Part shown: in pieces, positions 20,045 through 33,776 of the stretch
Layout of the letters: each line of letters starts with the position of its first letter
Numbering within the stretch: the stretch's first letter is position 1
Assembly (NCBI GenBank): GCA_019038645.1
Contig: JAHOYT010000018.1
Location: 1 to 64,000, forward strand
Length of the DNA: 64,000 bases
Origin: Bacteroidales bacterium
GTDB taxonomy: Bacteria > Bacteroidota > Bacteroidia > Bacteroidales > UBA12077
Direction of reading: 5' to 3'
The notes under the pieces: model-generated
Seen by the model: the letters and a program-made list of their open reading frames with translations, nothing else
What the model was told of the DNA's origin: nothing
Database searches by the model: none
Program-made: the position numbers and the translations under genes

Positions 20045-20419
20045 TCAGGCACAAAAAGATTCAATAGCATTTATAATTTTGTTAAACGAATATGGTTTAG
20101 TTAATAGTTGATTAAAACCGGCGTCGCTATAGCTTTCAAAGAAATCATCTGGATTATGAGCCGTCAGAGCAATAATAGGTAATTTATTTTTAGGGGAGGA
20201 CATCATGGTTCTGATATACTTTGTCGTTTCAATTCCATTCATAACAGGCATTTCGATATCCATGAGAATAATATCAATATCTTCATTTTGAATGATGTCA
20301 ATTGCTTCTTTCCCATTTGCAGCTTCTTTGATTACGCCACATAAATCCTGAATAATTTCTTTAAGCAATAGTCTATTTATAAATATATCATCAACAATTA
20401 AAAAGTTATATTTTTTCAT
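20045..20419 (-). CDS. Single-domain response regulator (receiver)
   Basis: CheY-like receiver of about 124 residues with no output domain. Acidic pair at VDD, phospho-acceptor Asp in IDIILMDIEMPVMNG, Thr in IALTAHN, Lys in LLTKPYSF. The track starts at a TTG; the ATG at 20419 (MKKYNFLIVDD) is preferred, leaving a 7-bp gap after the Crp/Fnr gene. It may receive phosphate from one of the hybrid kinases or CheA in the island, since no kinase is directly adjacent. Confidence 0.85.
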   Translation of the reverse strand: MKKYNFLIVDDIFINRLLLKEIIQDLCGVIKEAANGKEAIDIIQNEDIDIILMDIEMPVMNGIETTKYIRTMMSSPKNKLPIIALTAHNPDDFFESYSDAGFNQLLTKPYSFNKIINAIESFCA

Positions 20420-20426
20420 ACTATAA

Positions 20427-21113
20427 TTACCCAATCCTGCTAAGTGTTTTAATAATTTCCAGACTCCTTATTTTTACAAATCGCCCATCCAGATCAATAA
20501 TTTTGTCATTTTTGAATTCTGTTAGTGTTCTTATAAAGCTTTCTTTGGTAGTGCCTGCTAGTTCTGCAAGTTCATTACGGGTTATTGGAAATTCGAAAGC
20601 GTAAGAATTATATATATTTTCAGCAAAGTATAAAATAATATCAGCAATTTTTCCGGGTAATTGTTTCTGATATTGAGATGTCATTCTATTAAAAATATTT
20701 AAGCTGTCTTTACATACTTCTTTTAGCAAATAAACTGAATATTTGCCGTTGTTTTCAATAATTGAATAAAATGTATTAAAATCTATAAAGTAAACTTTGG
20801 AATCTTCAATTGCAGTGGCTGAATACTGAAATGTATTATTTCCAAAAATTGAAACTAATCCGATTAAAAAACCCGGAGTAGCAATTTTTAATATGATTGA
20901 TCTGTCATTTTTACCACTCCTGAAAAGCTTAACCAGACCAGATTCAAGAAACATAACATGCGATGTTAAGGTGTCTTGTCGGAAAATAACATCCTTTTTT
21001 TTAAAGAGAATTGTTTTGCCTTTTGATTTTAATTGATTGATTTCCTTACCAGTTAAGATATCGTCCTTTGGAAAAAGTTTATCATAAATATCGAAGTTAT
21101 CTTTTAAAATCAT
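20427..21113 (-). CDS. Crp/Fnr family transcriptional regulator
   Basis: 228-residue regulator: N-terminal cyclic-nucleotide-binding-like beta barrel (about 25-140), long dimer helix, C-terminal winged helix with TRNELAELAGTTKESFIRTL as recognition segment (about 178-197). No N-terminal Cys cluster as in Fnr, and the cNMP phosphate-binding signature is not conserved, so the signal is unknown. The ATG at 21113 is preferred over the TTG in the track. Divergent from the chemosensory operon and followed by a receiver. A TGAT-N4-ATCA dyad in the shared upstream region could be its own site. Confidence 0.85.
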   Translation of the reverse strand: MILKDNFDIYDKLFPKDDILTGKEINQLKSKGKTILFKKKDVIFRQDTLTSHVMFLESGLVKLFRSGKNDRSIILKIATPGFLIGLVSIFGNNTFQYSATAIEDSKVYFIDFNTFYSIIENNGKYSVYLLKEVCKDSLNIFNRMTSQYQKQLPGKIADIILYFAENIYNSYAFEFPITRNELAELAGTTKESFIRTLTEFKNDKIIDLDGRFVKIRSLEIIKTLSRIG

Positions 21114-21179
21114 CAAGTGTGCATTTCGGTAAATTTATTAAAATCTTTTTATAAATCCTTTATGAATTAAATTTATTGG

Positions 21180-21329: not shown

Positions 21330-21722
21330 ATGAATAAAGAATTTAACATTCTGGTTGTAGATGATTCTGAAACAAACCTGGTATTGTTGGAGGCAATACT
21401 GGAAGACGATGGGTTTAAAATACAAACTGCATATAGCGCAATGGAGGCGGTGGAGCATGTAAAGAATTGTATTCCGGATATAATACTTTTAGATTTATTA
21501 ATGCCTAATGAAAACGGATTTGATTTGCTTAAGAAATTGAAAGCTAACGAGAATTATAACCAAATACCTATTATTATTGTTACTGCATTTGCCAATCAGG
21601 AAAATAAGGTTATCGCAAAAGACCTGGGAGCTGAGGATCTTATAGAAAAGCCAATTGATATTCCCGAATTTTTAGACAAGGTACATAAGGTATTAAAGAA
21701 TAATAAGAAAATTGTAAAATAA
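21330..21722 (+). CDS. Single-domain response regulator (receiver)
   Basis: 130-residue CheY-like receiver. Acidic residues in VVDDSE, phospho-acceptor Asp in PDIILLDLLMPNENG, Thr in IIVTAFA, Lys in IEKPIDI. No output domain. First gene of the che operon, 7 bp ahead of the CheZ-like coiled-coil gene, so it is a good candidate substrate for that protein. Confidence 0.88.
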   Translation: MNKEFNILVVDDSETNLVLLEAILEDDGFKIQTAYSAMEAVEHVKNCIPDIILLDLLMPNENGFDLLKKLKANENYNQIPIIIVTAFANQENKVIAKDLGAEDLIEKPIDIPEFLDKVHKVLKNNKKIVK

Positions 21723-21729
21723 TTTTGGA

Positions 21730-23535
21730 ATGATAGATAAGGAAGTAAACGATAAAATTAAAATAAAAGCCTTGCTGGAGACTTATTCTGTAAAGGATAT
21801 CTCTACTACATTTTCACAGATTGATAATAAATTGATGTCATTACATGAATGTTCAGCGGATGATTTTCTTCAATTAAACAGCGATTTCAAAAATTTATAT
21901 AAGCAATCTAAAATAATATCAAATAATGTTAATACAATCTTTGATATATTTAATACGAATAAGAATAAGGATTTATATGATGCGATTCATTCTTTTTATG
22001 ATAGCCTAAAAAGCCAGACAGATATATTTGATCAAAAAATATCATTAACAATGGAGTTTTTAGAGGAGTTGTCAAATCAACTTCGATTTATATTTTTTCC
22101 TTTAAAAAATTTTGGTCAAAATTTAATGAGCCTGAAATATTTATTAGCAAACTTAAATTTATCGTTATCAATTGCGGATGATTCTTCCGATATAATTGAT
22201 CAATTTAAACTAGTTGAAGAAAAAATAAATAATATAAAACTGTTATCTGAAAGAATATTCAAAAGCTTAAACCATCTTCGCAAAATTTCAAAAATAACAA
22301 ATTCAAATTTTTCTCAGGTAAAGAATCAAAATGTACTTAATATAGAAGCGTTATTGTTGCGTGTTAAATCAAGAATAAATAGTTTAGAAAAAAAATATAA
22401 TAATAATAAAGAATGTATCCCAAAAATAAGAAGGAAAACAGATAAAACAGCTGACAGTATAAGTGATATTATTAAAAAGCTTCAGTATCAGGATATCATA
22501 AAGCAAAAAATGGAGCATATTCAACAAACCCATAGAGATTTGATCAGTGAGCTTCATAAATTTGAAACTACTTCAAAAGATGAAAAACACTTAAACGATA
22601 AAGCTAAGTTCTTTCTTCGGATAAGAGATATTGCCGGATTGCAGGCAGCACAGTTAATTCAGGCAAATAAAGAATACCAGTCAGCATTGGAAATCATTGT
22701 TAATAATTTTATGCAGGTTGGAGATAATATGAAAGTTATTTCGGAAATGTGTGGGAATATAAATACAGAAGAAAATGATGATGAAGTAAAATTGTTTAAT
22801 GAAATTGTTGATCAGATAGCTATTACTGAAGCTAACTTTATAAGCAAGTTTGATCTAAATAAAAAATTAAATAAGGATATTACTTTAATTGACCACCAAC
22901 TGGAGCAATCAGAAAAATATTTTACTGTTCTTAAGAACCTGACTTCTGAGCTAAATCAAAGTATGGAATTGTATTTTGTTAGTATTAATAAATATTCTTC
23001 GGTAGATGAGAACATAACAGAGTCTCTTAATCAGGTAAAAAACTTATTTGTTGAAATCACGGAAAATGCATCTGGTTTAGATGGTGTAAATGAAAAACTA
23101 ATCCCAATTAAGAAAAGAGTACAAAGTTTTATAAATGAATATAATAAACTTACATTAAATACAGATTTTAGTGAAATAAGGGATATTGTGTCACGATTAC
23201 ATTCTTTTAGAAAAGATATAGACAATAAATTAAAAGAAAATAATGAAATAAGTAATCAGGCATTAGAGAGTATTAAAAAATCAATATCTGAGATAAAATA
23301 CTATGATTACTTCGAAAAAATTATTGAAAAAATTATCTCGGAGTTAAATACAGTAAATTATAATCTTAAGGTTGAAAGTAGTGATGTGAATAGCACTGTA
23401 GAGGAAAACCTGATAAAGCTTAAAGAGTATTATACCATGGAAACTGAGCATAAAATTCATGATCAGATATCTAAAGGGGAGGAAATGGAAATAGATATTG
23501 ATAGTGAAGATGATGGAGATATTGAATTTTTCTAA
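21730..23535 (+). CDS. Large helical protein with CheZ-like motif
   Basis: 601 residues, predicted almost wholly alpha-helical/coiled coil, no signal peptide or membrane segment. Around residues 251-265 it reads LQYQDIIKQKMEHIQ: Q-D255-x3-Q259 in a helix, the same pattern as the catalytic Asp/Gln of CheZ (QDLTGQ). The last residues (EIDIDSEDDGDIEFF) are acidic and end in Phe, as in the CheY-binding tail of CheZ. A related helix at about 523-537 (YYDYFEKIIEKI) lacks the Gln, so the protein may be two CheZ-like halves with one active. It sits between two receiver genes and before cheA. Proposed role: phosphatase of phosphorylated CheY-like receivers. No homology search supports this yet; a structural role in the array is the alternative. 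Confidence 0.5.
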   Translation: MIDKEVNDKIKIKALLETYSVKDISTTFSQIDNKLMSLHECSADDFLQLNSDFKNLYKQSKIISNNVNTIFDIFNTNKNKDLYDAIHSFYDSLKSQTDIFDQKISLTMEFLEELSNQLRFIFFPLKNFGQNLMSLKYLLANLNLSLSIADDSSDIIDQFKLVEEKINNIKLLSERIFKSLNHLRKISKITNSNFSQVKNQNVLNIEALLLRVKSRINSLEKKYNNNKECIPKIRRKTDKTADSISDIIKKLQYQDIIKQKMEHIQQTHRDLISELHKFETTSKDEKHLNDKAKFFLRIRDIAGLQAAQLIQANKEYQSALEIIVNNFMQVGDNMKVISEMCGNINTEENDDEVKLFNEIVDQIAITEANFISKFDLNKKLNKDITLIDHQLEQSEKYFTVLKNLTSELNQSMELYFVSINKYSSVDENITESLNQVKNLFVEITENASGLDGVNEKLIPIKKRVQSFINEYNKLTLNTDFSEIRDIVSRLHSFRKDIDNKLKENNEISNQALESIKKSISEIKYYDYFEKIIEKIISELNTVNYNLKVESSDVNSTVEENLIKLKEYYTMETEHKIHDQISKGEEMEIDIDSEDDGDIEFF

Positions 23536-23556: not shown

Positions 23557-23880
23557 ATGAAAACAGAAGATAAAAACATTCAAATAAAGCCTTCAAATAA
23601 AAAAGGAGAAAGTTCGGTGAGTATAATAATTGAAAATGAGCTTACAATTTTTTCTGTTGAAAGCATGAAAGATAAAATAATTGAAGCCGTAACAAAATAT
23701 GATCATATTGGATTTGTATTAAAGACTGTAAACAATATGGATCTGACTTTTATTCAGTTATTATATTCTGTTAAAAAAACAGCTGAAACACGTAATAAGA
23801 AAGTATCATTTGATGTTGAACTATCTGATGATATTAAAACATTATTTAATAATTCTGATTTGAGCAAAGTATTAATATAG
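23557..23880 (+). CDS. STAS-domain protein of the che operon
   Basis: 107 residues; after a charged start, the pattern VSIIIENELTIFSVESMKDKI ... NNMDLTFIQLLYSVKKTAE ... VSFDVELSDDIKTLF is that of a STAS domain (anti-sigma antagonist/MlaB fold). At the usual phospho-serine position the sequence has Thr (MDLTFIQLL). STAS proteins occur in several chemosensory operons, with unclear roles, perhaps modulating CheA. Here it lies 21 bp after the CheZ-like gene and 21 bp before cheY. Confidence 0.7.
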   Translation: MKTEDKNIQIKPSNKKGESSVSIIIENELTIFSVESMKDKIIEAVTKYDHIGFVLKTVNNMDLTFIQLLYSVKKTAETRNKKVSFDVELSDDIKTLFNNSDLSKVLI

Positions 23881-23901: not shown

Positions 23902-24267
23902 ATGAGCAAAAATATCTTAATTGTCGACGATTCGGAAAGTATACGGGAAGTTGTAAGTTTTACTCTTGAAAATGAAGGTTACAATGTACTTGTTGGTGTT
24001 GATGGGAAAGATGCGTTAAAGTTTCTTGACGGAAGCCATATTGATCTTATAATTACAGACCTTCACATGCCGGAAATGAATGGTATAGAATTTATTAAGC
24101 ATGTAAGAGCGACGGATCAATACAAACGAATTCCAATCTTATTTCTAACAACCGAATCACAATCTTCTAAAAAAATGGAAGCGAAAGATGCCGGAGCTAC
24201 AGGATGGATTATTAAACCATTTGTTCCTGCAAAACTAATTGGTGCACTTAAAAAGGTATTAAGATAA
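23902..24267 (+). CDS. cheY: CheY-like response regulator
   Basis: 121-residue receiver. Acidic pair VDDSE, phospho-acceptor Asp in IDLIITDLHMPEMNG, Thr in FLTTES, Lys in IIKPFVP. This set is fully canonical and close to CheY. The stop codon overlaps the cheA start by one base, so translation is probably coupled and this is the best candidate for the direct CheA output regulator. Confidence 0.9.
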   Translation: MSKNILIVDDSESIREVVSFTLENEGYNVLVGVDGKDALKFLDGSHIDLIITDLHMPEMNGIEFIKHVRATDQYKRIPILFLTTESQSSKKMEAKDAGATGWIIKPFVPAKLIGALKKVLR

Positions 24268-26315
24268 TGGATAAATTCAGAAATAAATTTATAGAAGAAG
24301 CAACAGATAATATACATGATCTGGAGGATGCTCTATTATTAATTGAAAATGATCCGGAAGATAAAGAACTAATCGAAAGAATTTTTCGGGCAATGCATTC
24401 TCTTAAGGGGGGTGGTGCAATGTTTGGATTTGATTCTTTAAGTGAATTCACACATCATCTGGAAACATTATACGATTTGGTTAGAGAAGGGAAATATAAA
24501 ATAACTAAAAAGTTATTAGATGTTACTCTCGCTTCTGTGGATCATATGAAAGCACTTTTGGCTAATGATGATTTAGATTCTGCTGATTTGAGAACAATAC
24601 ATACTGATTTATCACTACAGATCAGGAAATTAATTGATAAAGAAAATGAAGAAAAACAACAACTTATTGTTGATGAACCGCAAACAGATAAATCTAAAGT
24701 AAAATCATATTATATATATTTTGAACCTGATATTGATATTTTTAGCGATGGTACTAATCCTTTATTCCTTTTGGATGAATTACACACAATAGGAGAGTGT
24801 AAAGTTTTTGCTCATTTTAATAAAGTACCTGAAATTGAAAAAATTGATATTACGAAATGTTATACTTATTGGGAAATATTAATTGCTACTAATGAAGATG
24901 TAAATACAATTTCTGATGTTTTTATTTTTGTTGAAGATCAATGTAAATTAGAAATAAATGAAGTTGCGGATTTTGATATCACAGAAAATGATAATATAAT
25001 TGATCAGGTTTCAAAACTGACTGAAGAAAGAACAGATGTTGGAGTTTCGGAGATTCAAAGTATTATTAAAAAAATCACATTATCTGAAAAACGAATTGAA
25101 CAGATTGAGGAAACAATAAAAAAGAAAGGCCCTTTACCTTCAGTTAAAGAAAACGTAATATCAAGCATAAGAGTGTCATCGGGTAAGCTTGATCAATTAA
25201 TGAATTTAGTAAGCGAGCTGGTTACTACACAGGCACGATTAAGTTTATTTGCCGAACAATCCGGTGATTCAGAACTAGCAGCAATAGCAGAAAATGTACA
25301 AAAATTGTCTCGTCAGTTGCGTGATAATGCATTTGATATTGTTTTAGTCCCTATTGAAACAATGTTAACCCGTTTTCAAAGATTAGTAAGGGATTTATCA
25401 AAAGAATTGAACAAAGATGTTGTATTTATTGCTGAAGGAGCAGATACTGAGCTTGATAAGACAATAATTGAATCATTAACAGATCCTTTGTTACATATTT
25501 TAAGAAATAGTATTGATCATGGTATTGAGTCTGCAGAAATAAGAAAGAAACTTGGGAAACCGGAACAAGGTAAAATAATTTTAAAAGCATTTTATTCAGG
25601 TGCAAATGTACACATTCAGATTCATGATGATGGTGCAGGTATTGACCCTGAAAAAATAAAGGATAAAGCAATTAACAAAGGAATAATAAATAAAGATACT
25701 TCACTCACTAAAAAAGAAATATTGGATTTAGTTTTTCTGCCAGGGTTTTCAACAGCAGAAAATGTTACAGGTGTTTCAGGGCGAGGAGTAGGAATGGATG
25801 TTGTAAAACGTAAATTGATTGAAGTAAGAGGAGAAACAGAGCTTGATTCAGAAATTAATGTTGGAACAACATTAACGATAAAATTGCCATTAACATTATC
25901 TATAATTGATGGGTTATTAGTTAAAATAGCTCATAATTACTATGTTATGCCGTTGTCAGTAGTTAATAAGATTAATGCTGTAGATCACAAAAATGTTGTA
26001 AATAAATACAATAACTTAATAGTATTGGACGGAGAGCAAATACCATTCTATTACTTAAGAGAAGAGTTTGATCTGCCTGAAGGAGAACAAGAGAGAGAAC
26101 AGGTTATTGTTGTTCGATATGATGATAAAGAAATAGGACTTGTGGTTGATGAAGTTGTTGGTGAATATCAGGCAGTTTTAAAATCACTTGGTAAAATGTA
26201 TAAAAAACAGGAAATTATCTCGGGTGCAACTATTTTGGGTGACGGAACAGTAGCTTTGGTAATGGATACAAATAAGATAATTTCCAGGTTTTCGCAAGCT
26301 AAGTTAAACGTGTAA
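24267..26315 (+). CDS. cheA: Chemotaxis histidine kinase CheA
   Basis: 682 residues with the full CheA order. P1 Hpt domain (about 1-105) has the phospho-acceptor His44 in MHSLKGGGAMFGF. A P2-like response-regulator-binding region (about 140-235) follows, then P3 dimerisation helices (SGKLDQLMNLVSELV), the P4 ATPase with N-box LRNSIDHGIE (near 410), DDGAGID (near 455) and GRGVGMD (near 505), and the C-terminal P5 CheW-like domain from about 545. It couples receptor/CheW arrays to phosphorylation of CheY and CheB. All catalytic elements look intact. It is the core kinase of this island. Confidence 0.96.
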   Translation: MDKFRNKFIEEATDNIHDLEDALLLIENDPEDKELIERIFRAMHSLKGGGAMFGFDSLSEFTHHLETLYDLVREGKYKITKKLLDVTLASVDHMKALLANDDLDSADLRTIHTDLSLQIRKLIDKENEEKQQLIVDEPQTDKSKVKSYYIYFEPDIDIFSDGTNPLFLLDELHTIGECKVFAHFNKVPEIEKIDITKCYTYWEILIATNEDVNTISDVFIFVEDQCKLEINEVADFDITENDNIIDQVSKLTEERTDVGVSEIQSIIKKITLSEKRIEQIEETIKKKGPLPSVKENVISSIRVSSGKLDQLMNLVSELVTTQARLSLFAEQSGDSELAAIAENVQKLSRQLRDNAFDIVLVPIETMLTRFQRLVRDLSKELNKDVVFIAEGADTELDKTIIESLTDPLLHILRNSIDHGIESAEIRKKLGKPEQGKIILKAFYSGANVHIQIHDDGAGIDPEKIKDKAINKGIINKDTSLTKKEILDLVFLPGFSTAENVTGVSGRGVGMDVVKRKLIEVRGETELDSEINVGTTLTIKLPLTLSIIDGLLVKIAHNYYVMPLSVVNKINAVDHKNVVNKYNNLIVLDGEQIPFYYLREEFDLPEGEQEREQVIVVRYDDKEIGLVVDEVVGEYQAVLKSLGKMYKKQEIISGATILGDGTVALVMDTNKIISRFSQAKLNV

Positions 26316-26352: not shown

Positions 26353-26907
26353 ATGAATAATGAGACAATAACTAAAATTAATTCTTATCTGTCATTTAAT
26401 CTGGGAGAAGAAGAATTTGCTGTTAATGTTAGCAAAGTACTTAATATACTCGAAATGCTAAAGATTACTGAAGTTCCCAAAGCTCCCGAATACATGAAAG
26501 GTGTTATAAATTTAAGAGGAACAGTATTACCAGTTGTTGATACAAGAGTAAAATTTGGGATGACACCAACTGAATACACATCTAATACTTGTATTGTGGT
26601 TATGGAGATCGAAATGGATAATGATACTGTCCAGGTTGGCACTTTAGTTGATTCTGTTCAGGCTGTTTTGGAACTTGAAGATAGCCAAATACTACCACCA
26701 CCTAATATAGGCACTAATTTTAAATCTGAATTTATTTACGGTATGGTAAAAGTTGATGAAAAATTTATTATGCTACTTGATATGGAAAAGGTTTTTTCTG
26801 TAGACGAAATAAGTTCAGTTAAAGAAAAGATAAAGAAGGGTGAAGTTAAAATTGAAGAAAAGGAAAAAGTAATTGAAAAGAAAAAAGTAAAGAAAAGTAA
26901 AAAATAG
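26353..26907 (+). CDS. cheW: Chemotaxis adaptor CheW (copy 1)
   Basis: 184 residues: a CheW SH3-like double barrel (about 10-150; VPKAPEYMKGVINLRGTVLP is the typical receptor/CheA-binding stretch), then a Lys/Glu-rich C-terminal tail of about 25 residues (ending KKKVKKSKK) not seen in the second CheW. It links CheA to chemoreceptors at the inner face of the membrane. Close paralogue of the CheW gene at 31196. Ends the cheY-cheA-cheW block; a 246-bp gap with hairpins follows. Confidence 0.95.
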   Translation: MNNETITKINSYLSFNLGEEEFAVNVSKVLNILEMLKITEVPKAPEYMKGVINLRGTVLPVVDTRVKFGMTPTEYTSNTCIVVMEIEMDNDTVQVGTLVDSVQAVLELEDSQILPPPNIGTNFKSEFIYGMVKVDEKFIMLLDMEKVFSVDEISSVKEKIKKGEVKIEEKEKVIEKKKVKKSKK

Positions 26908-27153: not shown

Positions 27154-28011
27154 ATGGTTGATTCTACTTTAAATAAAATTTTTAATGCAAAAATGACTAA
27201 AGATGATTTTAATCGTTTAAGTGATTACATTTTTAAGCAATCAGGAATAAAATTACCTCCTGTTAAAAAAATAATGCTGCAAAGTCGTCTGCAAAAAAGA
27301 TTAAGAGAATTAAAAATAGCATCATATACAGAATATGCTGATTATGTTTTTAGTCCTGAAGGACAAAAAAATGAAATTATTCATATGCTTGATGTTGTTA
27401 GCACAAATAAGACTGATTTTTTCAGAGAACCGATCCACTTCGATTTTTTAATTGATACCGTACTTCTCAATTTCATGAATGATCAAAAAATAAATTACCA
27501 TTTAAAAGTATGGAGCGCAGGTTGCTCAAGTGGCGAAGAACCATATACAATTGCAATAACCTTAAATGAGTTCATGAATAAAGCCCCTAAATTTAATTAT
27601 ACAATAACAGGTACAGATATCTCTTCTCAAATTCTTCAAAATGCTGCGTTTGCAGTTTATAAGGATGAAAGAATTGCAAACATTCCGCTTGAAATTAAAA
27701 AGAGATACTTCTTAAAAAGTAAAAACAAAGAAAAGAAAACTGTGCGTGTTGTGAAACGCTTAAGAGAAAAAGTGAACTATCAGCGCTTAAATTTTATGGA
27801 TAATACATATAATGTAGCAGATATTTTTGATGTTATTTTTTGTAGAAATGTTTTAATTTATTTTAACAGAGAAACACAAGAGCAAGTAATTAGCAAACTA
27901 TGTAGTAAATTAAAAAGTGGAGGATATTTATTTATAGGCCATTCGGAATCTATTCTGGGAATGAACCTTCCATTAGAACAAATAAAACCAACAATATTCA
28001 GGCGAATTTAA
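27154..28011 (+). CDS. cheR: Chemoreceptor methyltransferase CheR
   Basis: 285 residues. N-terminal helical domain (about 15-85) and a SAM-dependent methyltransferase domain with WSAGCSSGEEPYTIAI (about 119-134) and FCRNVLIYF (near 228-236), both diagnostic of CheR. It methylates glutamates of the signalling domain of receptors such as the MCP at 31734. Start ATG gives a normal length. Begins the second block of the island (cheR, His-less kinase, cheD, receiver-PAS). Confidence 0.95.
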   Translation: MVDSTLNKIFNAKMTKDDFNRLSDYIFKQSGIKLPPVKKIMLQSRLQKRLRELKIASYTEYADYVFSPEGQKNEIIHMLDVVSTNKTDFFREPIHFDFLIDTVLLNFMNDQKINYHLKVWSAGCSSGEEPYTIAITLNEFMNKAPKFNYTITGTDISSQILQNAAFAVYKDERIANIPLEIKKRYFLKSKNKEKKTVRVVKRLREKVNYQRLNFMDNTYNVADIFDVIFCRNVLIYFNRETQEQVISKLCSKLKSGGYLFIGHSESILGMNLPLEQIKPTIFRRI

Positions 28012-28953: not shown

Positions 28954-29427
28954 ATGGATAAACTAGAATCACATTTTTTATATCCTGCCGCACTTTTTGC
29001 AAGCAAAGAACCTTTTCAGATTAATACAATCCTGGGTTCTTGTGTAGCGGTTTGTTTTTGGGATGCTGTATTAAAAACAGGAGGTATGTGTCATTATATG
29101 CTTCCTTACTGGAATGGAGAAGGATTAGCTTCTCCTAAATATGGTAACATTGCTATTGAAAAACTATTAGAAAAAATGTATTCTTTCGGATCCAAAAAAA
29201 ATAATATTGTCGCTAAAGTTTTTGGAGGAGGAGATGTTCTTGAAATTAAAAGCTCGCATTTTCATATTGGGGAAAGAAACATTAAATTGGCATGGGAGCA
29301 GCTTAAAGAATTAAGAATTCCTATAACCAGCTCAAGTGTAGGTGGTAAAGACGGAAGAAAAATCATATTTTATACCGAAACAGGTGAAGTAAAACAACGA
29401 TATGTGAAAGGACAATCGAAAGCTTAA
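28954..29427 (+). CDS. cheD: Receptor glutamine deamidase CheD
   Basis: 157 residues. The catalytic Cys30 (LGSCVAVCFWD) and His47 (GMCHYMLP) have the CheD spacing of 17; the GERNI and GGKDGRKI stretches near the end are typical. CheD deamidates glutamines of chemoreceptors and in many species is paired with the phosphatase CheC, but no CheC is present here; the CheZ-like protein may take that place. Follows the His-less kinase by 14 bp. Confidence 0.93.
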   Translation: MDKLESHFLYPAALFASKEPFQINTILGSCVAVCFWDAVLKTGGMCHYMLPYWNGEGLASPKYGNIAIEKLLEKMYSFGSKKNNIVAKVFGGGDVLEIKSSHFHIGERNIKLAWEQLKELRIPITSSSVGGKDGRKIIFYTETGEVKQRYVKGQSKA

Positions 29428-30793: not shown

Positions 30794-31183
30794 ATGAAAA
30801 TTATGAATACAAAAATTCCTGTAATACTGATTATTGATGATGCCGATTCTCATTTATACTTATTACAAAGCATATTGAGTGAGGAAGGTTATAATGTTAT
30901 AATTGAGAATGATGCTCAAAACGCTTTAGTGATTATGGATGAAATTAATTTTGATCTCATTCTGCTTGATTTAATGATGCCAAAAATAGATGGATTTACG
31001 ATTCTTGAGATTATAAAAACTAATTATAAAAATAAAAATATTCCTGTAATTATGGTTTCGGCAAAATCCGATATTAAAAGTATAGAGCGTTCAATTAGGG
31101 AAGGTGCACATGATTATATTGTTAAACCTGTTAATATACGTGATGTAAAAAATAAAATAAAATCAGCTTTAAATAATTACTAA
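30794..31183 (+). CDS. Single-domain response regulator (receiver)
   Basis: 129-residue CheY-like receiver. Acidic pair IIDDAD, phospho-acceptor Asp in FDLILLDLMMPKIDG, Ser in IMVSAKS (the Thr/Ser switch position), Lys in IVKPVNI. No output domain. It starts the block receiver-CheW-MCP after the palindromic non-coding region. The ATG three codons downstream is an alternative start. Confidence 0.88.
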   Translation: MKIMNTKIPVILIIDDADSHLYLLQSILSEEGYNVIIENDAQNALVIMDEINFDLILLDLMMPKIDGFTILEIIKTNYKNKNIPVIMVSAKSDIKSIERSIREGAHDYIVKPVNIRDVKNKIKSALNNY

Positions 31184-31195
31184 AATTTGAAAAAT

Positions 31196-31696
31196 ATGGA
31201 AGAAAATGAATTGAGAATTAATTCGTATTTGTCATTTAAACTTGGAGATGAGGAATTTGCTCTTCATGTTGATAAAGTGCTAAATATACTTGAAATGACA
31301 AGTATTACCGAAGTGCCAAAAGCTCCTGATTATATGAAAGGAGTTATTAATCTTCGTGGAACTGTCCTCCCGGTAGTAGATACCAGACTTAAGTTTGGTC
31401 TTACCGAAACCGTTTATACCGACAAAACCTGTATTATAGTGTTGGAACTTAACCTCGAGAATCAAAAAGTTTTTGTTGGTTCATTAGTCGACGAGGTACT
31501 ATCGGTACTTGAAATTGAATCAGGCGGGATTCAGGATCCTCCGAGTATTGGAAGCAAGTACCGTGCTGAGTTTATTAATGGAATGGTAAAGGTTGATGAA
31601 AAATTCATTATGATATTGGACATGGAAATGGTATTTACCTTAGACGAGCTGAATGTTCTAAAGGATAAAATGTCACAAAAAAAAGAAGTAGTATAA
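31196..31696 (+). CDS. cheW: Chemotaxis adaptor CheW (copy 2)
   Basis: 166-residue CheW, closely similar to copy 1 over the whole core (VPKAPDYMKGVINLRGTVLP is almost identical) but without the Lys/Glu-rich tail. The track starts at a TTG; the ATG at 31196 (MEENELRINSYLSF) matches the start of copy 1. It directly precedes the chemoreceptor gene (37 bp), so this adaptor may be dedicated to that receptor while copy 1 serves CheA in general. Confidence 0.93.
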   Translation: MEENELRINSYLSFKLGDEEFALHVDKVLNILEMTSITEVPKAPDYMKGVINLRGTVLPVVDTRLKFGLTETVYTDKTCIIVLELNLENQKVFVGSLVDEVLSVLEIESGGIQDPPSIGSKYRAEFINGMVKVDEKFIMILDMEMVFTLDELNVLKDKMSQKKEVV

Positions 31697-31733: not shown

Positions 31734-33776
31734 ATGAAATGGAAAAATTTTAAATTAGGAAAAAAGTTCTTTATTTCTTTTGGTTTAATAATAGTTCTTT
31801 TGGTTGTTGTTGCTGTATGGGCAATTAACGGAATCGGAGGAATAGTTGGTAATGCAGGAGAAGTTATCCAAGGAAATATTTTAAGAACTGATCTGGCACA
31901 AAAGTATGTTCAACATCTTCAATGGGCATCAGATGTAAATAAACTATTAACCGATGAAACTGTTACAAAACTTAATGTTCAGACCGATCCAGGTAAATGT
32001 GAATTTGGTATATGGTATTATGGCGAAGGAAGAAAACATGCAGAAACACTTGCCCCGGAATTAAAGTCTCTTTTCGATGAAATTGAGGAACCTCATACAC
32101 AATTGCACGAATCGGCCATAAAGATTGACGAAGTTTTTTATCAGGCGGATGTAGCACTTGGGGCTAAACTTAGAAATGTTAAAAGTGAACACCTGTTATG
32201 GACGCACTCAATTAAGGATGCATTATTACAGGAAAAAAATGTTCTTAATGTTCAAACCGACCCTCAAAAATGTAATTATGGAATATGGGTAAATTCAGAT
32301 GAAATTGTTCAAATGAGAAAAGATGACCCTGAACTTGATCGGCTGTTAACTAAAATTGATGAACCACATAATAAATTGCATACAAGTGCTATTCAGATTG
32401 AAAATTATCTTGCTCAGGGAAATCTAACGGCAGGGTATAATTATTTCAATAACAATACCAGTAATTACGCAATAGCAACATTAGATCTTATTGATGATGT
32501 TGTTGAGTGGAATGACAAGAATCTGGAAGGAATGAATGAAGCCAATGCAATTTATAATAATCAAACAATGGTTCACCTAAATCAGGTTGGCGATTTATTT
32601 GATGAGATAATTGAAAGATCTAAGGATTATATTCTAACTGATGCAGTAATGCTTCAACAAGCAGGAAATACTCGTATGGGAGTTATTATTTTTAGCATAA
32701 TTGCCTCGCTTATTGCAATATTATTGGCTGTGGTTATAACCAGAGGAATTGTAAATCCGGTTAAAAAATCGGTTGTATTCGCAAAAGATGTGGCTGCCGG
32801 GAATTTGACTACTACTGTTGATATTGATCAGGAAGATGAAATTGGAGATTTAGCAAATGCTTTAAAAAGCATGGTTGATGAGTTGCGTAAAATTGTAGCA
32901 AATATTCAGGATGGAGCTGCAAATATTACAAGTGCCAGTTTACAAATGAGTTCTACTTCGCAGCAAATGTCGCAGGGGGCTTCAGAACAGGCATCGTCAG
33001 CCGAAGAAGTTTCTTCTTCGATGGAAGAAATGGCATCTAACATACAGCAAAATACCGATAATGCACAGCAAACAGAAAAGATTGCAATTAACGCTTCCGA
33101 AGGTATAAATAAAGGTAACGCATCAACGGAAATTTCTGTAAATGCAATGAATAAAATTGCTGAAAAAATCACTATTGTAAATGATATCGCATTTCAAACA
33201 AATATACTTGCTCTTAATGCAGCTGTTGAAGCAGCACGTGCAGGTGAACATGGAAAGGGTTTTGCCGTGGTTGCTGCCGAAGTAAGAAAACTGGCTGAAA
33301 GAAGTAAGATTGCTGCCGATGAAATAGATCAGCTTTCACGTGAAGGTGTTAAAATTTCGGAAGAAGCTGGAACTCAACTGGCCGAAATTGTACCTGAAAT
33401 TGAGAAAACAGCAAAATTAGTTCAGGAAATAGCTGCTGCAAGTATGGAACAAAATAGTGGTGCCGATCAGGTAAATAGTGCTATACAACAACTAAATCAG
33501 GTAACTCAGCAAAATGCAGCCGCTTCTGAAGAAATGGCTACAGGCTCTGAAGAACTTTCCAGTCAGGCAGAGCAACTTCAGGATATAATTTCATATTTTA
33601 AAATTGACAGAGAGAACACAAAACAGAGGAAGAGTAAAACTGTTGTAGCAAAAAAACAGGTAAAATCAGCAAAAACAGATCAAATAAACAAACCCAAGGA
33701 AAAAAAATTAGAAAAGGGTGTTGATATTAAGCTGGAATCATTTAATGCAGCAGACAGTGATTATGAGAAATTCTAA
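31734..33776 (+). CDS. Chemoreceptor (MCP) with two extracytoplasmic CZB domains
   Basis: 680-residue transmembrane methyl-accepting protein. TM1 about 13-33. The extracytoplasmic part holds two CZB (chemoreceptor zinc-binding) units with full Zn ligand sets: H61/C89/H121/H125 and H153/C180/H212/H216, each in HxxW ... CxxGIW ... HxxLH. TM2 about 313-335, HAMP about 337-390, then the cytoplasmic signalling hairpin with the conserved tip [24 protein letters not shown] domains bind zinc and in some bacteria sense zinc or hypochlorous acid through the Cys. It is the only canonical MCP in the window. The C-terminus is Lys-rich and has no obvious CheR-tethering pentapeptide. Confidence 0.93.

Follow-up and report, generated by a model that had tools for sequence, protein, structure and literature searches.

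Setting of the gene and the question of CheY switch-off

How is the response regulator CheY switched off in a Bacteroidales pathway that has none of the usual enzymes for it? Most chemosensory systems use CheZ or CheC/CheX phosphatases, according to a survey of CheA (PMC10782961). The stretch analysed here (64,000 nucleotides of a Bacteroidales contig, hereafter the window) came from a genome with one CheA, three MCPs and a GldL, in which profile searches identified no CheZ, CheC, CheX or FliM. Given the absence of CheZ, CheC and CheX, the only visible candidate CheY phosphatase in this genome is a 601-residue protein encoded in the window's che operon (Table 1). Encoded by a bacterium without flagella, the protein appears to be a duplicated, reshaped chemoreceptor signalling rod with an Asp/Gln pair like that of CheZ, and its predicted role is probably to switch off CheY. 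The family to which it belongs is real and conserved, and apparently undescribed so far: its nearest relatives lack useful annotation, and the papers found in a literature search did not describe it. CheX-like matches were seen in 3 of 27 genomes carrying the family (G059, G340 and G253), that of G253 falling below the Pfam cut-off.

Table 1. Features of the 601-residue protein and of the surrounding che operon (positions in the window)
Feature	Position	Strand	Basis and remarks
Single-domain receiver, directly upstream	21330..21722	+	Domain profile; 36/50 loci
601-aa protein: tandem MCP-like hairpins, CheZ-like D-x3-Q site; all-helical, soluble	21730..23535	+	ORF, AlphaFold, homologues
N-arm conserved block, residues 31-54 (ID.KI..L.ECS..DFL.LN)	21820..21891	+	Conservation; opposite the D-x3-Q helix by hairpin register (putative pairing)
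Conserved hairpin 1 tip, residues 127-142 (KN..QNL.TLKFL..N)	22108..22155	+	Relatives' MCP-like tip there is MLGISTKIESARLG
Motif helix IIKKLQYQDIIKQKMEHIQQTH, residues 247-268	22468..22533	+	D255 at 22492-22494, Q259 at 22504-22506
Conserved block, base of hairpin 2, residues 298-327 (IRDIAGLQAAQLI.ANKEYQ.A)	22621..22710	+	Orthologue conservation
Turn of hairpin 2, residues 420-427	22987..23010	+	Aligned with relatives' MCP-like tip IALNARVKAARTGDNG
Second-repeat counterpart of motif helix, residues 522-546 (KYYDYFEKI)	23293..23367	+	Alignment; Lys at Gln position
YTMxxExxxH block, residues 568-577	23431..23460	+	Homologue alignment; common to two phyla
Acidic disordered tail ending [VIL]E[FL]F	23473..23532	+	Alignment, AlphaFold
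STAS-domain protein, CheS-like position	23557..23880	+	Domain profile
CheY-type receiver, likely substrate	23902..24267	+	Domain profile
CheA, sole one in genome, without receiver domain	24267..26315	+	Domain profile
CheW	26353..26907	+	Domain profile
CheR	27154..28011	+	ORF; aligned with E. coli CheR
CheD	28954..29427	+	Domain profile

An earlier note on this DNA had placed the gene in a che operon, between two receiver genes. The operon is as described, with STAS, CheY, CheA, CheW, CheR and CheD all encoded downstream, and a receiver does lie directly upstream; the gene directly downstream, however, encodes the STAS protein, with CheY following it. CheA and CheY were downstream of the gene in 53 of 70 related loci, while in 17 of the 70 the gene did not adjoin cheA. 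Loci with no cheA within 2 kb downstream (L047, L049, L052-L055, L057-L059, L062, L064, L069, L078, L079 and L110) were mostly from rumen or gut Bacteroidales, and in two of them, L049 and L078, a CheW match began 13 bp after the gene.

Several other genes of the window also have chemosensory or regulatory features. Immediately ahead of the operon, the opposite strand carries a regulator of the Crp/Fnr type and a receiver-like ORF (20045-21116), and many related loci have a receiver-like match about 1.3 kb upstream, likewise on the opposite strand. Farther downstream, a second receiver and a second CheW (30794-31696) directly precede the gene of a canonical MCP (31734-33776), which ends in DYEKF, a CheR-tethering pentapeptide of the NWETF type.

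Conservation of the D-x3-Q helix

D255 and Q259 sit in the helix LQYQDIIKQKMEHIQ (residues 251-265), where a Q-D-x3-Q arrangement had been noticed from the sequence alone. The protein contains four D-x3-Q matches against approximately 2.1 expected from its composition. Across 25 full-length orthologues, collected by whole-protein search with no selection on the motif and having a median pairwise identity of 27%, D255-x3-Q259 was invariant (25/25), as the earlier note's reading of it as an active site demanded, while the other three matches were kept in only 3, 2 and 4 of the 25. The orthologues had 23 invariant columns, seven of them within residues 247-263; Q252, I256, I257 and H263 were as invariant as the Asp and Gln themselves, so what is conserved here may be a surface for binding. 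A second set comprised 80 loci, all from Bacteroidota and nearly all metagenome-assembled, in which D-x3-Q was kept in 77/77, a count that is partly so by construction; because the patterns used to fetch these loci contained the motif, we excluded the set as independent proof of conservation.

The second half of the protein has a similar helix, IKYYDYFEKIIEKI, with D526 and K530 at the places that match D255 and Q259, in agreement with the earlier report of a Gln-less copy near residue 525. The pair is intact in the first repeat and has Lys for Gln in the second, and the earlier idea of a single live site is supported. Among the pattern-fetched members, the position equivalent to Q259 (window 23308-23319, residues 527-530) was Lys in 49/77, Asn in 10/77 and Gln in 6/77; as D526 is mostly kept, a few members may have two candidate sites.

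Internal duplication and chemoreceptor ancestry

Comparison of the two halves with hhalign gave Prob 87 and E 4e-6, values to which coiled-coil bias possibly contributes, and set D255 opposite D526 and Q259 opposite K530. AlphaFold predicted an all-helical protein in which helices of 55, 70, 47 and 75 residues are repeated as 59, 73, 47 and 66 residues, with moderate packing confidence (AF2 pLDDT 79-83, pTM 0.48-0.55, the upper pTM being that of the full chain); half 1 modelled alone reached pTM 0.48, with helices 3 and 4 merged into one. No transmembrane segment was found in the 601 residues (top 19-residue hydropathy 0.97), nor did a domain profile search of the protein reveal a sensor or any other domain. 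With the AlphaFold turns at residues 146-153 and 423-427, taken as about 149 and 425, block 31-54 would face 247-268 and block 298-327 would face 522-546; by these putative contacts each conserved patch would make up a single surface at the hairpin base.

When half 1 was used as a Foldseek query, chemoreceptor cytoplasmic domains came first (E 6e-4, TM 0.3-0.5), and CheZ was absent from the best 50 matches. The models, of single chains and of moderate confidence, lean to an MCP-like rod over the four-helix bundle, formed in CheZ by a dimerising hairpin, that the earlier note had anticipated. Foldseek with the full model likewise listed no CheZ among the best 50 and returned SMC and other coiled coils at TM 0.08-0.3, which we regard as meaningless, and a PDB profile search with the protein was swamped by coiled coils.

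A profile built from 73 family members identified five full-length homologues (L120-L124) from other Bacteroidota classes (E 1e-25 to 4e-48). FliM was present in the genomes of all five and absent from that of the window and from 22/22 Bacteroidales carriers tested. All five exceeded the PF00015 (MCPsignal) cut-off, with 44.5-58.1 bits against 34.6, four of the five matching in two separate stretches. Both of their halves contain MCP-like hairpin tips, MLGISTKIESARLG and IALNARVKAARTG, which coincide with the turns that AlphaFold independently gives the window protein, and they carry IQFHDITRQQxEHV between the tips and YTMxSERxIH and xELF at the end. Gene order (gene, STAS or small gene, CheY, CheA) was kept in the four contigs of these flagellated relatives with enough context; the remaining contig likewise has CheY and CheA downstream.

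The window protein itself had no PF00015 match above the cut-off, and only 2 of the 73 family members matched, weakly (best E 0.0039). The MCP tip signature has been lost from both tips in the Bacteroidales and kept in the distant homologues, the tip of hairpin 1 being re-specialised yet conserved in the former. Resemblance to the MCP signalling domain lies in the homologues above its cut-off, the tips in both of their halves and the long antiparallel arms, whereas the window protein differs in having no transmembrane segment, PF00015 match or tip motifs and in its additional D-x3-Q helix. Through the distant homologues, computation at the sequence level identifies the duplicated unit as the MCP signalling hairpin. 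Of the earlier reading, a doubled CheZ, the doubling is retained; the repeated unit becomes an MCP hairpin, and what resembles CheZ is the D-x3-Q site.

In plasmids, tblastn gave no match for the window protein or for the motif, and L120 as query was the sole bridge to alphaproteobacterial plasmid homologues of approximately 575 residues (L136-L144). These carry LQIGDITRQRxEH and YTMxxERxxH. In two annotated Shinella loci the gene is divergent from STAS-CheY-CheA, and other alphaproteobacterial homologues adjoin CheR and CheB. Each of these links is weak alone, and together they are convincing because three motif blocks, their order and the neighbours are all shared between Bacteroidota and Alphaproteobacteria. 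The D and Q were kept in all nine alphaproteobacterial homologues, as well as in L120-L124 and a further three from flagellated Bacteroidota (L133-L135). Two of the alphaproteobacterial genes, both from Shinella (L136:1844-3568 and L144:3977-5701), stand beside STAS-CheY-CheA and are called 'type VII secretion target', a label that probably stems from a weak PF10824 match in the coiled coil.

The C-terminal tail and possible non-catalytic roles

We consider it somewhat probable that the 601-residue protein is an MCP-derived CheY-P phosphatase, CheZ-like by convergence or very remote descent. Weighing against it are the lack of a significant phosphatase-family match, the moderate confidence of the models, a helix invariant beyond D and Q, the CheX-like matches in 3 of 27 carriers and the 17 loci where the gene does not adjoin cheA. 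Two other readings draw on the same chemoreceptor ancestry. The first concerns the tail, which ends in EDDGDIEFF and bears out the acidic, FF-terminated end ascribed to it earlier; its last residue, F601, is invariant in the 25 orthologues. Among MCP-like ORFs in related loci, 29/38 end in Glu-x-Phe, mostly with Tyr or Phe before the Glu, as does the DYEKF of the window's MCP. As the family tail, x-[VIL]-E-[FL]-F, shares with these ends the Glu at -2 and the final Phe, it may bind CheR rather than CheY, in which case it would be an MCP-inherited CheR-tethering pentapeptide and the protein would work mainly with CheR. A CheR gene in the operon and the binding of CheR by CheT of Sinorhizobium meliloti (PMC12654446) agree with such a tether; against it, the aromatic residue at -3 has become V/I/L and the polar residue at -1 F/L, and ALF or GLF is the usual ending among the alphaproteobacterial members. 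We hold this alternative to be possible, if doubtful; it is compatible with phosphatase activity.

Less probable still, and in our judgement unlikely, is a non-catalytic adaptor that would tune the array or fix its location by binding CheA/CheW or CheY, with the Q-D-x3-Q-x3-H helix as its docking surface. Such a role would suit the MCP ancestry, a helix that is invariant as a whole and beyond D and Q, and the re-specialised but conserved tip 1 of the Bacteroidales. Half 2 also keeps an equally invariant YYxxF surface without the Gln, so conservation there needs no catalysis. Speaking for the phosphatase instead are the retention of a CheZ-spaced D-x3-Q across two phyla and a genome in which no CheY phosphatase of another known type was identified and whose CheA has no receiver sink.

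Comparison with CheZ and other phosphatases

Pfam, NCBIfam and profile-profile searches gave the window protein no significant match to CheZ, nor to a phosphatase family of any other kind. Profile-profile comparison with CheZ gave Prob <1% and preferred a gapped register. On L120 and L124, the CheZ HMM aligned ungapped, placing their D at D143 and their Q at Q147, weakly (5-7 bits), and NCBIfam Phos_CheZ matched L124 at E 0.0048, far under its cut-off. Run over 3,270 ORFs, the CheZ HMM ranked family members high at E 0.02-5 with CheA-sized ORFs among them, which is no proof.

The likeness to CheZ (PF04344; E. coli, PDB 1KMI) consists of D-x3-Q on a helix, an aromatic residue two before the Asp, an acidic tail ending in Phe, and genes encoded with CheY and CheA. 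The window protein differs in its length (601 against approximately 214 residues), its MCP-derived tandem hairpins and its motif surroundings. In CheZ the motif AXXF(Y)Q stands just before D-x3-Q (PMC7750401), whereas in the family Y/F was at -2 in 77/77, Q at -1 in 21/77 (His in 55), and Ala was absent at -5. A Gly preceding the catalytic Gln and a tail of VDDLL were invariant in 8 CheZ; both are absent from the family, which has K/R/Q258 (Lys or Arg in the comparison with the window protein) and [VIL]E[FL]F instead.

A doubled, divergent CheZ, that is, one chain with two CheZ hairpins, is very improbable: the internal duplication, the aromatic-preceded motif, the Phe-ending acidic tail and the HMM ranking point toward it, yet no CheZ family match was found, the distant homologues score as MCPsignal and have an MCP-type tip in each half, and the Gly-Gln and VDDLL are missing. 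The data do not demonstrate homology with CheZ, and the proposed role does not require it. The sequence likeness may reflect very remote homology, a CheZ-type helix grafted on an MCP rod, or convergence. CheC, CheX and FliY share the CheY phosphatase role proposed here, and their fold and motif differ from the D-x3-Q type.

The nearest functional precedent, by analogy, is the CheT/CheS pair of S. meliloti. CheT is a phosphatase of the D-x3-Q type in which homology to CheZ is not detectable (Agbekudzi et al. 2024, reviewed in PMC12654446), and CheS, encoded in the same che cluster, is a STAS protein that binds CheA (PMC12654446). Compared by description rather than by sequence, CheT and the window protein share D-x3-Q and a che cluster with a STAS gene; they differ in that a CheZ-like AlphaFold model and a complex with CheR are reported for CheT (PMC12654446).

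Proposed mechanism and implications

The phosphatase role is likely, with catalysis, substrate, docking and tether partner all predicted as follows. Tandem duplication of an MCP signalling hairpin would have yielded a soluble protein, one hairpin of which bears a CheZ-like D-x3-Q helix near its base. CheY-P, and perhaps also the upstream receiver, would dock on the base of hairpin 1, where Q259 would enter the receiver active site and position a water for attack on the aspartyl phosphate, assisted by D255, in the manner of D143/Q147 of CheZ. The tail, acidic and ending in Phe, would act as a tether, either for the receiver, like the tail of CheZ, or for CheR, like the MCP pentapeptide, and the second repeat, its Gln lost, would serve as a scaffold.

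In a broader reading, for which we see the chances as evenly balanced, the family would be a cross-phylum group of response-regulator phosphatases born from a chemoreceptor, in which a duplicated MCP rod gained a CheZ-type Asp/Gln pair. Its members would act in flagellar chemotaxis in some of the Bacteroidota, and those of the Bacteroidales, whose tips are altered, in a pathway without flagella, perhaps one for gliding. The presence of GldL makes gliding or type IX secretion a possible output, which is speculation. If true, the proposed role would explain how CheY is switched off in che systems without CheZ, CheC and CheX, would place D-x3-Q chemistry on an MCP-type rod, and would offer an initial way into the chemosensory pathway of Bacteroidales that lack flagella.
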